From Thioclava electrotropha (GTDB taxonomy: Bacteria > Pseudomonadota > Alphaproteobacteria > Rhodobacterales > Rhodobacteraceae), in the NCBI RefSeq assembly GCF_002085925.2, contig NZ_CP053562.1:3051501-3115500 (forward strand): a stretch of DNA of 64,000 bases, in the 5' to 3' direction. This document shows, piece after piece, positions 46,536-53,727 of the stretch. The position numbers and the translations under genes are program-made. Every line of letters starts with the position of its first letter. Position 1 is the first letter of the stretch. The notes under the pieces were generated by a model. That model made no database searches, had not been told where the DNA came from, and saw only the letters and a list, made by a program, of their open reading frames with translations.

Positions 46536-48374
46536 ATGGAACAGCGCGGAACCGACCGTCTGAAACTCGCCCTCCTCGCGCTCGCCGTAGCGGCGCTGGT
46601 GGTGGGCCTCGCCTTCTGGGCGGCTGGCGCGGACGCCTTGGCGAAAGCCAGCTGGACCGTCGGCGTCGTGCCCACCCTCGCCGCGCTTGTCTTTGAGATC
46701 TCCCGCAGCCTCCGGCGCGGCGAAGTCGGTCTGGATATCGTGGCCGCTCTCTCGATGACCGCCGCGCTTGTCTTCGACGAAACGCTCGCCGCGGCGGTCG
46801 TGGCGGTGATGTATTCCGGCGGCACTTTCCTCGAGAGCTTCGCCGAGGGCCGCGCCCGGCGCGAAATGCACGACCTGCTCTCGCGTGTCCCACGGACCGC
46901 AACGCGGCATCGCGATGGCGGGCTGGAGGATATTCCGCTCGACGAGATCGCCCCCGGGGATCGCCTGCTGATCCATCAGGGCGACGTGGTGCCGGTGGAC
47001 GGATCATTGGCCTCCGAGACGGCTTTTCTGGACACATCGGCGCTGACCGGGGAGTCTCTGCCGGTTCGTTTGGCGCATGGGGCCGACGTCATGAGCGGCT
47101 CGACCAATGCAGGCGAGGCGTTCGATCTGATGGCGGTGCGGCCCGCGAAGGACAGTACCTATGCCGGGATCGTCCGGCTGGTCGAGGAAGCCCAGGCCTC
47201 CAAGGCCCCGATGTCGCGCCTCGCGGATCGCTGGTCTCTGGGCTTTCTCGTGGTCACGCTCGCCATCGCCTTCGCGGCGTGGTGGTTCACCGGAGACCCG
47301 ATCCGCGCGGTCGCCGTTCTCGTGGTCGCCACCCCCTGCCCGCTGATCCTCGCCGTACCGGTCGCTCTGGTGGCGGGGCTCTCGCGCGCGGCGCATTACG
47401 GCGTGCTGATCAAAGGCGCGGGACCGCTCGAGACGATGGCGCGCATCGGCACGCTGGTCCTCGACAAGACCGGCACCCTGACCGAAGGCCGCCCGCAGAT
47501 CGTGTCGATCGACAGTCACGACGGGATGGAGGAAGACGAGATCCTGCGCCTTGCCGCCGCCCTCGATCAGGCCTCGAAACATCCGGTGGCACAAGCGATC
47601 GTCACCGCCGCGAAAGAGCGCGGCTTCACCCTGCCCGTCCCGTCGGATGTGGCGGAAATCGCGGGCGAAGGCGTCGTGGGTCATGTCGAGGGGCGCAAGG
47701 TCATCGTCGGTGGCGACGACTTCGTGGCGGCGCGCGTCGGGCGCAAACCGGGCGACCACCCGACGATGGCCGCCGGGGCGGTCCTCGTCGCCGTCGCCGT
47801 GGACGGGCGCATGGCCGGGCATCTGGTGATGGCCGATCCGCTGCGCGAAGATGCGGGCGCCATGCTCGACGGGCTGCGTCACGAGGGGATCGAACGGATT
47901 CTGCTCGCCACCGGCGACCGAACGGATGTGGCCGAACGCGTGACCGAGGGGCTCGGCCTCGACGGGCTGCGCGCGGGCCTGACGCCGGACCAGAAAGTGC
48001 TCCTCGTGCTCTCCGAGCGCAAGCATGGGCCGGTCATGATGGTGGGCGACGGCGTGAACGACGCGCCCGCGCTCGCCGCCGCAGATGTCGGCGTCGCAAT
48101 GGGCGCGCGCGGGGCCGCCGCCTCGGCCGAAGCGGCCGATGTGGTGCTTCTCGTCGACCGGATCGATCAGTTGCGCGCGGGCATCGAAATCGCCGCATCC
48201 TCGCGGCGGATCGCCTTCGAGAGCGTCGCCGCCGGGATCGGCCTCTCGGTGCTGGGCATGATCGCAGCCGCCTATGGCTACCTCACGCCGGTGGAGGGCG
48301 CCATTTTGCAGGAGGCGATCGACGTCGCCGTGATCCTGAACGCCCTGCGCGCCCTTCGGATCAGGCCCAAGTGA
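46536..48374 (+). CDS. Heavy-metal P-type ATPase lacking an N-terminal metal-binding domain
   Basis: A 612-residue P1B-type ATPase. TGES is at 171-174, the phosphorylated DKTGT at 310-314 (Asp310), the nucleotide-site SKHPVA follows, and GDGVNDAP closes the phosphorylation domain. The transmembrane ion-site motif is TPCPLILAVP (266-270) rather than the CPC of copper or zinc pumps. No HMA domain or histidine-rich tail precedes the first helix. Metal specificity is therefore unclear: the TPC form occurs in little-studied P1B groups. No metal regulator adjoins. Confidence 0.88.
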   Translation: MEQRGTDRLKLALLALAVAALVVGLAFWAAGADALAKASWTVGVVPTLAALVFEISRSLRRGEVGLDIVAALSMTAALVFDETLAAAVVAVMYSGGTFLESFAEGRARREMHDLLSRVPRTATRHRDGGLEDIPLDEIAPGDRLLIHQGDVVPVDGSLASETAFLDTSALTGESLPVRLAHGADVMSGSTNAGEAFDLMAVRPAKDSTYAGIVRLVEEAQASKAPMSRLADRWSLGFLVVTLAIAFAAWWFTGDPIRAVAVLVVATPCPLILAVPVALVAGLSRAAHYGVLIKGAGPLETMARIGTLVLDKTGTLTEGRPQIVSIDSHDGMEEDEILRLAAALDQASKHPVAQAIVTAAKERGFTLPVPSDVAEIAGEGVVGHVEGRKVIVGGDDFVAARVGRKPGDHPTMAAGAVLVAVAVDGRMAGHLVMADPLREDAGAMLDGLRHEGIERILLATGDRTDVAERVTEGLGLDGLRAGLTPDQKVLLVLSERKHGPVMMVGDGVNDAPALAAADVGVAMGARGAAASAEAADVVLLVDRIDQLRAGIEIAASSRRIAFESVAAGIGLSVLGMIAAAYGYLTPVEGAILQEAIDVAVILNALRALRIRPK

Positions 48375-50648: not shown

Positions 50649-51497
50649 TTAGTCGCGCAGCACACCGGCGGCGGCGAGCACTTCGCGGTCCGGGCGCCAG
50701 ATATCGCGATGCGGTGTCGCGAAGGCGCGCGTGGAGAAGCTGGCACTCACGCCGCGATCGCGCAGGAAGGCCCGGTCGATCGCCTCCTCTTTCGCGACGT
50801 CGATCGGCAGCGGATAGGCTTTCAAGCTATAGCCGTGAAAGCCCAGCTTTCCCTCCGGCCCAAGATCGCGATGCGCGCCCGCCATGAAGATCAGCGTGCA
50901 GGCGGAATAGCAGCGTCTCGTCACCTGCGTGTTCAGCCCCCGCGCCAGCACGCGTTGCGCCAATGCGCGCGCGGCGAAGACCTGACCGCCGGCACTGTCG
51001 AGATCAACCGCCGAGACGCCCGTCGCCGGGGTTGCCTCGAACCGCGCCAAGAGATCGTAGCCGATATCGCCGGTCAGATAAGCGACGCCGTTGCGCACCT
51101 CCAGCGGCTGCGGCCCGGCATAGGCGGCCGGCACCAAGGCCGCTGTCTGCCGCGCGGCCTGATCGAGCGCATGGGTCACCGTCACCACCGCGACCGCCAC
51201 CACCGCCACGCGTCCGGCGAGCAGCACATGGCCCCGCGCCTGCGCGTCGATCCAATGCGACAGGCTGCGCCACGCGCCCACCAGCTGCCACAGCGCCAGT
51301 GTCATGTCTGCGAGGAAGAGCAACCCGAAAAGCGGCATCGAGAGCGGCGACGGCAAGGCTTGCCACAGCTCGGCGACCGCCAACCGTCCGCCGATCAGCA
51401 CCACCACGAGCGCGATCCAAGGCGGGCAGTCGCCCTGCCAATAGCTGTTGAGCCCCCAGTGTGAGGCAGGCTGAAATATCCGGGTGGCTCGGGCCAT
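50649..51497 (-). CDS. Membrane-anchored ClpP/crotonase-fold protein
   Basis: A 282-residue protein. Residues ~27-110 contain three hydrophobic segments (ALVVVLIGGRLAVAE, PLFGLLFLADMTLALWQL, GRVAVVAVAVVTVTHAL). The rest has a ClpP-like pattern: VDLDSAGGQVFAARALAQ, then TRRCYSACTLIFMAGAHRD with a serine in the nucleophile position and KLGFHGYSLKA with a His. It may be a membrane serine protease of the SppA/NfeD type, but the Asp is not certain. It is divergent from the hydrogenase gene with 163 bases between. Confidence 0.7.
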   Translation of the reverse strand: MARATRIFQPASHWGLNSYWQGDCPPWIALVVVLIGGRLAVAELWQALPSPLSMPLFGLLFLADMTLALWQLVGAWRSLSHWIDAQARGHVLLAGRVAVVAVAVVTVTHALDQAARQTAALVPAAYAGPQPLEVRNGVAYLTGDIGYDLLARFEATPATGVSAVDLDSAGGQVFAARALAQRVLARGLNTQVTRRCYSACTLIFMAGAHRDLGPEGKLGFHGYSLKAYPLPIDVAKEEAIDRAFLRDRGVSASFSTRAFATPHRDIWRPDREVLAAAGVLRD

Positions 51498-51593: not shown

Positions 51594-51660
51594 TGAAGAC
51601 GCAGGCCTTCTGCCACGGCGACGGCCTCTGCTATACTGAGGAGACGGGAGGTCCCTTCGC

Positions 51661-53727
51661 ATGATCACGCTTACGATCAACGGGCGGCACGTCGAAGTCG
51701 ACGAGGGCACCAGCTTGCTGGATGCGGCGAAGCTGGCTGGCATCCATATCCCGACGCTCTGCTATTACCCCGGCCTGCCCGCCCATGCCGTGTGCCGCAT
51801 GTGCCTCGTGGAGATCGAGGGCAGCCACAATCCGCAACCGGCCTGCCGCACTCTGGCGAAGGAGGGCGATGTCGTAGCGACGGACACCGAGGCGCTGGCG
51901 GCCTTTCGGAAAGCCGATGCGCAATGGCTGCTCGCGCGCCATCCCAATGACTGCATGCGCTGCGAGGTGAACGGGGCGTGCCAGCTCCAGCGGCTCGTCC
52001 ATGAGAACCAATGGGAGGAGCGCTGGCCGAAGATGCCCGCCGGGGCGCCTGCCGCCTCGGAAGAGCTCGCAACCGATCACACCTCCCCCAGCATCTGGCG
52101 CGACCTGTCGAAATGTATCGAATGCGGGTTGTGTGCGGAGGTCTGCGGCGACAGCGTCCAGAACCAGAATGTCATCGGGTTCGCCAATCGCGGCTTCGAC
52201 CGGCGCCCCGTCACCGTCTTCGACGTGCCGCTGTCGCAGACCAATTGCATCTCCTGCGGCCAGTGCACGCTTGTCTGCCCTGTCGGCGCGCTGATCGAGG
52301 CGCCGCATTGGCACGCGGTGCTGCGCACGCTCGACGCCCATCGGCGCGTCTCCGTGGTTCAGGTGGCCCCGGCGACCCGCATCGCCATCAGCGAGGAATT
52401 CGGGCTGGAGCCGGGCACTGTCAGCACCGGGCGCTTGATCAACGCGCTGCGGCTTTTGGGGTTCGATTACGTGTTCGACACCAATTTCGCCGCCGATCTC
52501 ACGATCATGGAGGAAGGCACCGAACTGCTGTCGCGGATCGAAGCCCGGACGGAGCTGCCGCTGTTCACCTCCTGCTGTCCGGGTTGGGTGAATTGGGTCG
52601 AGTTGAACCGCCCCGATCTTCTGCCGCATCTTAGCACGACCAAATCCCCCCAGCAGATGCATGGCGCGATTGCAAAACGGGGCCGCTTTGCGCGCGCGCT
52701 CGGGCCCGATTTCGCGGAGGGCAAAGCCGAGCCCTATGTCGTGAGCGTGATGCCCTGTACCGCCAAGAAGGACGAGGCCCAGCGCCCCGGTGTCTCTGGC
52801 GACGTGGATCATGTGCTCACCACCCGCGAACTGGCGCGGATGATCCGGTCGCGGGGCATCCCGTTCGGGGCGCTCTCCGAAGACGGGCAATTCGACAGCC
52901 CGCTGGGCGAGAGCACCGGGGCCGCCCAGATATTCGGCGCCTCCGGCGGGGTCATGGAGGCGATGGTCCGCACGGCTGCGCATTTCAAAGGGGTCGAGCA
53001 CGATCTGCCGCTGGAATGGGAGGCGCTGCGCGGCGTCCGTGAGGGCGTGAAGACCGCGACCATTCCCGGCGTCGGCACCGTGGCCGTGTGCAACGGGATC
53101 GCCTCGGCCCAGCGCATGCTGGAAGACGAGGCCTGGCGCGACGACTATGTCGCGATCGAAGTCATGGCCTGCGTCGGCGGCTGCCTCGGCGGCGGCGGCG
53201 AGCCGAAATCCATGGACCCGCATATTCTGCAAAAACGCGCCAAGGCGATCTACAGCGTCGATGCGAAGGCACCGCGCCGCCGCTCCTATGAGAATGCGGA
53301 TGTGCAGGCGCTTTATGCCTCGGAACTGGGCGCGCCGAATTCCCCGACGGCGCACCGTCTGCTCCACACCCATTACGCCGCCAGACATTCCGAGCGCTCG
53401 CTGCTGATGCGCTTTCTGGATTGCGTGGACCGGCGCGACGGTGCGGCGGCCGCAAAGCTGTTTCATCCCGACGGGGTCTGGTCGACCGCCTCTCCCTTCG
53501 GCGTGCTGACCGGCGCGGACGAGATCGCGGGGCTCATCAACGCGAAGCTGCCGCCGAACCTGCGCGGCGCGAAATATGCGCGCCACCAGATGGAGCGCGC
53601 CTCGGATATCGACGATCTCACGGTCCTCGCCCCCGACGGGAGCCGCAGCCGCTTCGATCTTGAGCTGAGCACCGTGGACGGTCAGTCGGAGATGGTGATC
53701 CAGACCCTCACGCGCACCGTCCTGTGA
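51661..53727 (+). CDS. [FeFe]-hydrogenase, CpI-like modular type with extra C-terminal SnoaL/NTF2-like domain
   Basis: A 688-residue iron-only hydrogenase (2 H+ + 2 e- to H2). N-terminal [2Fe-2S] ligands are Cys34, 45, 48 and 62. The His-ligated [4Fe-4S] site is His94, Cys98, 101 and 107. Two more [4Fe-4S] sites are CIECGLCAEVC (152-162) and CISCGQCTLVC (196-206). The H-cluster motifs are all present: TSCCPGW (Cys305/306), MPCTAKK (Cys366) and EVMACVGGCLGGGG (Cys504, 508). Proton-path residues known from CpI (MEEGTELLSR and STTKSPQQ) are kept. The small-subunit-like tail ends near 570 (LLHTHYA). Residues ~575-688 look like a SnoaL/NTF2 domain (FLDCVDRRDGAAAAKLFHPD). No hydEFG maturases or diaphorase subunits are in view. 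Confidence 0.9.
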   Translation: MITLTINGRHVEVDEGTSLLDAAKLAGIHIPTLCYYPGLPAHAVCRMCLVEIEGSHNPQPACRTLAKEGDVVATDTEALAAFRKADAQWLLARHPNDCMRCEVNGACQLQRLVHENQWEERWPKMPAGAPAASEELATDHTSPSIWRDLSKCIECGLCAEVCGDSVQNQNVIGFANRGFDRRPVTVFDVPLSQTNCISCGQCTLVCPVGALIEAPHWHAVLRTLDAHRRVSVVQVAPATRIAISEEFGLEPGTVSTGRLINALRLLGFDYVFDTNFAADLTIMEEGTELLSRIEARTELPLFTSCCPGWVNWVELNRPDLLPHLSTTKSPQQMHGAIAKRGRFARALGPDFAEGKAEPYVVSVMPCTAKKDEAQRPGVSGDVDHVLTTRELARMIRSRGIPFGALSEDGQFDSPLGESTGAAQIFGASGGVMEAMVRTAAHFKGVEHDLPLEWEALRGVREGVKTATIPGVGTVAVCNGIASAQRMLEDEAWRDDYVAIEVMACVGGCLGGGGEPKSMDPHILQKRAKAIYSVDAKAPRRRSYENADVQALYASELGAPNSPTAHRLLHTHYAARHSERSLLMRFLDCVDRRDGAAAAKLFHPDGVWSTASPFGVLTGADEIAGLINAKLPPNLRGAKYARHQMERASDIDDLTVLAPDGSRSRFDLELSTVDGQSEMVIQTLTRTVL

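Follow-up and report, generated by a model that had tools for sequence, protein, structure and literature searches.

How an active site of the [FeFe]-hydrogenase type can be kept complete in a genome without the enzymes of its assembly is the question raised by a gene of Thioclava electrotropha. The gene lies at 51661-53727, on the forward strand, of a 64,000-nt stretch of DNA (contig NZ_CP053562.1, positions 3,051,501 to 3,115,500; this whole stretch is hereafter the window, and coordinates are counted from its first letter). By comparison of the open reading frame (ORF), profiles and PDB entries, it encodes a 688-residue protein, in which a group A [FeFe]-hydrogenase scaffold is followed by a SnoaL/NTF2-like domain. 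We found that this fused protein is a widespread proteobacterial family with a conserved active site, and that HydE, HydF and HydG, the three maturases regarded as required for H-cluster assembly, have no match over the cut-offs in T. electrotropha or in any of the 44 further carriers whose genomes were searched. As the solution of a complete site without HydEFG, an alternative maturation route and another cofactor, taken together, have in our estimate about an even chance.

Anatomy and distribution of the fused protein

The ORF is initiated by ATG, consists of 688 codons for residues and carries no internal stops. Pfam analysis identified, from the N-terminus, Fer2_4 (residues 1-76), NADH-G_4Fe-4S_3 (83-117) and Fer4-type matches (about 145-211), followed by the H-cluster domain Fe_hyd_lg_C (residues 231-512, E 1.4e-80; 52351-53196) and the ordinary small-subunit tail Fe_hyd_SSU (residues 521-575, E 7.8e-19; 53221-53385), which includes H565 and H569. 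The N-terminal part carries the ligand sets of a [2Fe-2S] cluster (C34, C45, C48 and C62; 51760-51846), a His-ligated [4Fe-4S] cluster (H94, C98, C101 and C107; 51940-51981) and two [4Fe-4S] clusters of a dicluster ferredoxin domain (C152/155/158/162 and C196/199/202/206; 52114-52278). In the H-domain, the L1 motif TSCCPGW (52567-52587) holds the proton-relay cysteine C305, equivalent to C299 of CpI, and the ligand C306; the L2 motif MPCTAKK (52750-52770) holds M364, the ligand C366 and K369, which we take to be K358 of CpI; and the L3 motif MACVGGCLGGGGEP (53164-53205) holds the ligands C504 and C508 together with the family-specific residues L509 and E514. All these features are on the forward strand. 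The complete hydrogenase scaffold with its H-cluster cysteines, H94 cluster and three further Fe-S sites, as claimed in a preliminary description of the window, was thus confirmed.

The score against TIGR02512 ([FeFe]-hydrogenase, group A), 436.2 bits, exceeds the curated cut-off of 405.95, and the group A residues C305, C306, C366, K369, C504 and C508 were all present in each of the 172 distinct fused sequences described below. The best NCBIfam model was that of group A6 (NF040763), for which the score of 655.3 bits stays under the cut-off of 765, placing the protein outside A6. The best PDB match, also the nearest known system by sequence, was HydA of Thermoanaerobacter kivui (8a6t_A, groups A3/A6; E 6e-146), which aligned with query residues 1-578 and itself ends at 571 aa. 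The matched chains of CpI ([FeFe]-hydrogenase I of Clostridium pasteurianum, group A1), an enzyme matured by HydEFG, end near residue 580 and thus have no SnoaL domain, unlike the fused family.

In the T. electrotropha protein the ordinary CpI-type tail is present and ends near residue 575, and the additional domain follows it at 53386-53724. SnoaL_4 matched residues 578-644 (28.8 bits, cut-off 24), and at E<=0.01 the C-termini of the family matched SnoaL_2 in 42 and SnoaL_4 in 40 of 43 cases. The domain modelled alone reached a pLDDT of 81.8, and a Foldseek search of the PDB with this model gave 111 matches at E<=0.001 (best E 3.4e-5), including 5tgn, LinA, SgcJ and ketosteroid isomerase at TM-scores of about 0.5-0.65. 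Residues 576-688 are therefore a genuine SnoaL/NTF2 domain by profile and fold; the domain proposed earlier from residue 570 is real, but its boundary lies at about 576. Within it R579, D590, R592, W607, R641, H642 and F665 are invariant in a 43-row alignment and conserved at 97-100% in the 172 sequences. The domain starts seven residues past H569. In CpI this histidine is part of the hydrogen-bond network around the mouth of the proton path, and the SnoaL domain is therefore probably located close to that mouth. A search for stand-alone SnoaL relatives gave 37 proteins of 108-207 aa, which appear to be pieces of the fused protein because 24 carry the hydrogenase tail PF02256 and 34 are on contigs of <6 kb.

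For the distribution of the family, the 7999 candidate proteins sharing most words with the query were scored. The best 120 of these were 642-727 aa in length, with query coverage of 91-100% and identity of 72-97%; a precomputed SnoaL match was not recorded for all of the 120, and the coverage of each takes in the domain. When one genome was scanned for each species, 321 relatives were found, of which the best 79 loci comprised 67 proteobacterial loci (65-97% identity, a few of them truncated where the contig stops) and 12 Thermotogota loci (45-49% identity), whose proteins stop at 581-586 aa and are unfused. The proteobacterial carriers among these best 79 included Thioclava, Alloyangia, Salipiger, Jannaschia, Hyphomonas, Brevundimonas, Janthinobacterium, Gallionella, Nitrosomonas, Thiomicrorhabdus, Hydrogenovibrio and Mariprofundus, among others, the closest relatives being those of Thioclava (T. 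sediminum, 97%). A total of 184 fused sequences gave the 172 distinct ones after identical sequences were dropped, a recurrence far beyond chance. The search of other genomes proposed earlier thus found the same fusion, and what might have been a single oddity is a real fusion of which many proteobacteria have a copy. A quick tree was built from 79 rows, 63 of them fused and 16 not, and in it the fused proteins formed one clade spanning several classes; the lone exception, L065, was labelled unfused and stood among the fused rows because its contig ends within the gene.

The gene was found in three of 398 Pseudomonadota genomes, that of T. electrotropha counted, and as anticipated it is rare in the Rhodobacteraceae, T. 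electrotropha alone having a match at E<=1e-60 among 248 genomes of the family. The fused gene is the sole Fe_hyd_lg_C match in its genome. Carriage on plasmids was rejected, since the matches at E<=1e-100 in nine plasmid records were all of <60% identity and confined to the hydrogenase part. A foreign base composition was likewise rejected, the GC content being 0.64-0.67 in 1-kb windows over the gene and 0.61-0.70 around it.

Some members of the family have already been filed as group A1. PMC4744846, citing the survey of Greening et al. (2015), lists as putative group A1 enzymes the proteins of Thiomicrospira chilensis and its relatives T. kuenenii and T. pelophila and that of H. marinus, and gives those of Roseibacterium elongatum and Wenzhouxiangella marina as the nearest annotated proteins; in the available part, the account of the Thiomicrospira group A1 proteins mentions neither a SnoaL domain nor missing maturases. 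A fused protein is encoded by Thiomicrorhabdus chilensis DSM 12352 (locus L072), presumably the T. chilensis protein of this account, and P0078, named R. elongatum, has the SnoaL domain and presumably is the R. elongatum protein meant there. The fusion is not described in the available parts of PMC8924675, PMC10945355 and PMC6265342, and neither the fusion nor a family-wide lack of maturases was found in the open-licence literature by a set of searches in which one phrase used may miss '[FeFe]-hydrogenase'.

Lack of HydE, HydF and HydG in the carriers

HydA needs HydE, HydF and HydG according to PMC10711303. In the T. electrotropha genome (2 contigs, rated 100% complete) HydG gave zero matches at E<=0.001, HydE none at E<=1e-10, and HydF none over the cut-off, the best score being 69.4 bits against 325.55; sub-threshold HydF matches were seen in 14 of 14 control genomes too, and were therefore taken as GTPase background. 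The lack of maturases noted earlier for the window thus extends to the whole genome. Whole-genome searches of the same kind were directed at 50 of the 79 loci. With one of these, L057, left out, they covered five Thermotogota with unfused HydA and 44 other fused carriers, of which the record titles mark 24 as isolates and 20 as metagenome or uncultured assemblies. HydG was found in none of the 44 carriers at E<=0.001 versus four of the five Thermotogota, where the identical search gave E-values of 1e-140 to 1e-161; HydF in none at E<=1e-40 versus four of five; and HydE in none over the cut-off versus three of four, with a single weak match of 5.4e-11 in G013. The HydEFG genes by which group A membership is also judged were thus each missing from the own genome and from all the others. 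Normal maturation from elsewhere in the genome, as once suggested, is not supported in view of this absence. The preliminary description had named genome-wide absence of HydEFG as one half of what would speak against an active hydrogenase, and this half was indeed observed. On the other half, a lack of H2 activity, only a published uptake test of one carrier species, T. chilensis, and of two relatives bears (PMC4744846).

G047 (the genome of L083), a Thermotogota genome with unfused HydA, gave no match to any of the three maturases within the thresholds applied; either its assembly is incomplete or it is another case of HydA without maturases. Among the 398 Pseudomonadota genomes HydG was detected once, in G339, where the same contig carries a short HydA match (query 192-516, in an open frame of 415 aa).

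An ordinary [FeFe]-hydrogenase, with normal maturation by HydEFG proteins that have diverged beyond the reach of the profiles, or with a cofactor supplied by community neighbours, would agree with the complete active site, and the 20 metagenome or uncultured assemblies may miss genes. The uniform failure of HydG even at E<=0.001, set against the very strong matches in Thermotogota, the rated completeness of the own genome and the parallel absence of HydF and HydE speak against it, and we regard it as distinctly unlikely.

HypD, used as a marker of the [NiFe] route, was over the cut-off in 8 of 45 carriers, T. electrotropha included, and absent in 37. A gene present in 8 of 45 carriers cannot serve as a general substitute, and HypD was rejected as the common supplier of Fe(CO)(CN) units. 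In T. electrotropha HypD was located at G000:C1:3332052-3333170; its presence makes it probable that a [NiFe]-hydrogenase system exists separately in this genome.

The missing genes could also mean that the H-site holds its [4Fe-4S] part only, as in HydA made without HydEFG. Such an apo-type Fe-S protein would be an electron carrier or a redox/oxygen sensor, with SnoaL for ligand binding or oligomerisation, and would not handle H2. It agrees with the lack of HydEFG at cut-off throughout the carriers and of HypD in 37 of them, and with PMC4744846, where no H2 uptake was seen for the carrier T. chilensis; the T. chilensis genome (G023) contained no HydE, HydF, HydG or HypD. In addition, the apo HydA entries 4xdd and 3lx4 align to the structure model like the holo entries, indicating that the fold has no need of the 2Fe part. 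Such a protein, however, has no obvious need of the proton-relay and 2Fe-pocket residues, which are invariant or nearly so (see below), and we consider it rather unlikely. A comparable case is Rhodospirillum rubrum, where an [FeFe]-hydrogenase, likewise alphaproteobacterial and in a maturase-free genome, was held by earlier work to be probably inactive or of different role (cited in PMC4967309).

Conservation of the active site and the preferred reading

For the 2Fe pocket of CpI, we take the other residues to be A230, P231, S323, P324, Q325, M353, K358, F417 and M497. Its proton path consists of C299, E279, S319, E282 and R286, and H565 and H569 are assigned to the R286 network (PMC6226526). 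Across the 172 fused sequences, of which 48 are retained by greedy selection at <80% identity, no variation was seen in the [4Fe-4S]H ligands or in C305, E285, E288, R292, M364, K369, F425, M502 and H569; S325 is kept in 171 and H565 in 135. Every cluster ligand is present in at least 170 of the 172, with gaps at C34 and C45 as the only exceptions. Among the columns conserved in at least 14 of 15 unfused enzymes, the fused family kept 13 of 13 non-ligand pocket and path columns versus 76 of 108 others (one-sided p 0.014; at other thresholds p 0.0009, 0.0024 and 0.069). That the proton path is complete speaks in favour of a proton-coupled reaction at the H-site.

Compared with five relatives, the hydrogenase part has a dN/dS ratio of 0.07-0.13 and SnoaL one of 0.17-0.26, and selection on the fused gene is purifying. 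A decaying relict of a formerly active hydrogenase would fit the absence of maturases and the scarcity of HydB/HydC-like genes nearby (1 of 68 loci). Purifying selection and the retained active site indicate that the gene is not a relict, and with the near-complete retention of the cluster ligands and the spread of one clade across several classes, decay becomes highly improbable.

Nar1/NARFL and HydS-type sensory proteins are HydA relatives whose main job is not the production or uptake of H2, and they are set apart from the fused family by missing some pocket or proton-path residues or by carrying PAS domains. Among the Pfam matches of the T. electrotropha protein there was no PAS or other signalling domain as in HydS. 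A sensor role, raised before, is not favoured for this reason and because the proton-path cysteine and glutamates are kept in 172 of 172 sequences.

We give the preferred reading, a HydA-type proton-coupled Fe-S redox enzyme with its H-site filled without HydEFG and SnoaL permanently attached, an equal chance of being right or wrong. The protein would most likely be a soluble, proton-coupled redox enzyme of hydrogenase architecture. Electrons would run from the N-terminal Fe-S clusters to the H-site, a route established for CpI and bifurcating HydA, and protons would move along the conserved path C305-E285-S325-E288/R292. SnoaL, directly after the H565/H569 segment, may bind a small ligand or gate the side of the path mouth. 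The H-site would be filled independently of HydE, HydF and HydG, by alternative maturation or by a different cofactor in the same pocket. Turnover of H2 by the fused protein is a putative activity. A more specific form, in which the proteobacterial family fills the site without HydEFG and mostly without Hyp by a new route or cofactor and SnoaL couples it to an organic small molecule, we put forward only tentatively, as possible yet short of probable.

Several points weigh against the preferred reading. We know of no alternative maturation route, and among 68 loci no consistently linked gene was found that could supply one. The carrier T. chilensis took up no H2 in PMC4744846, and neither did T. 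kuenenii and T. pelophila, which are listed there beside it. The pocket and path excess is not significant at the strictest threshold (p 0.069), the pocket set was chosen by us from one paper and general knowledge, and 12 of the 15 comparison enzymes are from Thermotogota. The H-domain is strongly conserved along its whole length (158 of 287 columns at >=97%), so that the invariance of one residue says little. The full-length structure model is poor across the dicluster region, roughly residues 124-214. Finally, the cluster loop of the fused proteins shows changes peculiar to them, L509 and, in the GGGQP loop, E514, where ordinary relatives mostly have Q. Family-fixed differences from ordinary relatives are at positions 89, 157, 477, 478, 509 and 514, including W89, N478 and L157, which replaces R between two cluster cysteines; these changes may retune the clusters.

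Genomic surroundings and meaning for the family

Upstream of the gene, a Shine-Dalgarno-like GGGAGG (51646-51651) is followed 9 nt downstream by the ATG, and a sigma-70-like promoter match is at 51610-51637, by consensus only, the stretch having 1 such match versus 0.3 expected; both are on the forward strand. The gene is flanked by a divergent gene (50649-51497, reverse strand) and an efflux-type operon from 53918 (forward strand), labelled by eye. A P-type ATPase gene is at 46536-48374, about 3 kb upstream, and 12 of 68 loci have P-type ATPases (by eye) in their flanks, partly through close relatives. Neither an exact FNR/Anr consensus box upstream (3 of 63 fused genes versus 19 of 731 controls) nor one with one mismatch (8 of 63 versus 63 of 731) was convincingly enriched, and this sign of oxygen control was rejected.

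A HydB/HydC-like gene was found in the flanks, some of them short, of 1 of 68 fused loci (L074) by a search confined to flanks, and likewise in 0 of 12 Thermotogota loci. The HydB and HydC genes that stand beside hydA in HydABC (A3/A6) systems were thus generally missing at the fused loci, whereas HydB-/HydC-type genes adjoin the A6 genes in three of three fetched among the nine plasmid matches. At L074 (7320-9404), an alphaproteobacterial metagenome assembly, the fused gene lies inside a complex I operon with nuoD and nuoE on either side (names by eye). The probe match there is nuoF of the operon, at 34% identity, and this locus alone hints at NuoEF as a possible electron partner. A conserved operon partner was rejected, the largest neighbour groups being present at 13, 12, 12, 11, 10, 9 and 9 of 68 loci; by eye these resemble response regulators, P-type ATPases, short-chain dehydrogenases, ABC proteins, sensor kinases, phosphoribosyltransferases and membrane sensor-type proteins. 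Some loci, judged by eye and with no background count, resemble low-oxygen or stress islands, with Hsp20, a phosphoribosyltransferase, an acetoacetyl-CoA-reductase-like protein and an FNR-type regulator.

A complete H-site without HydEFG in 45 of 45 carriers would mean another route to an organometallic cofactor, or new chemistry in a hydrogenase scaffold. Surveys that file such proteins as group A1 may overstate H2 metabolism in these bacteria.
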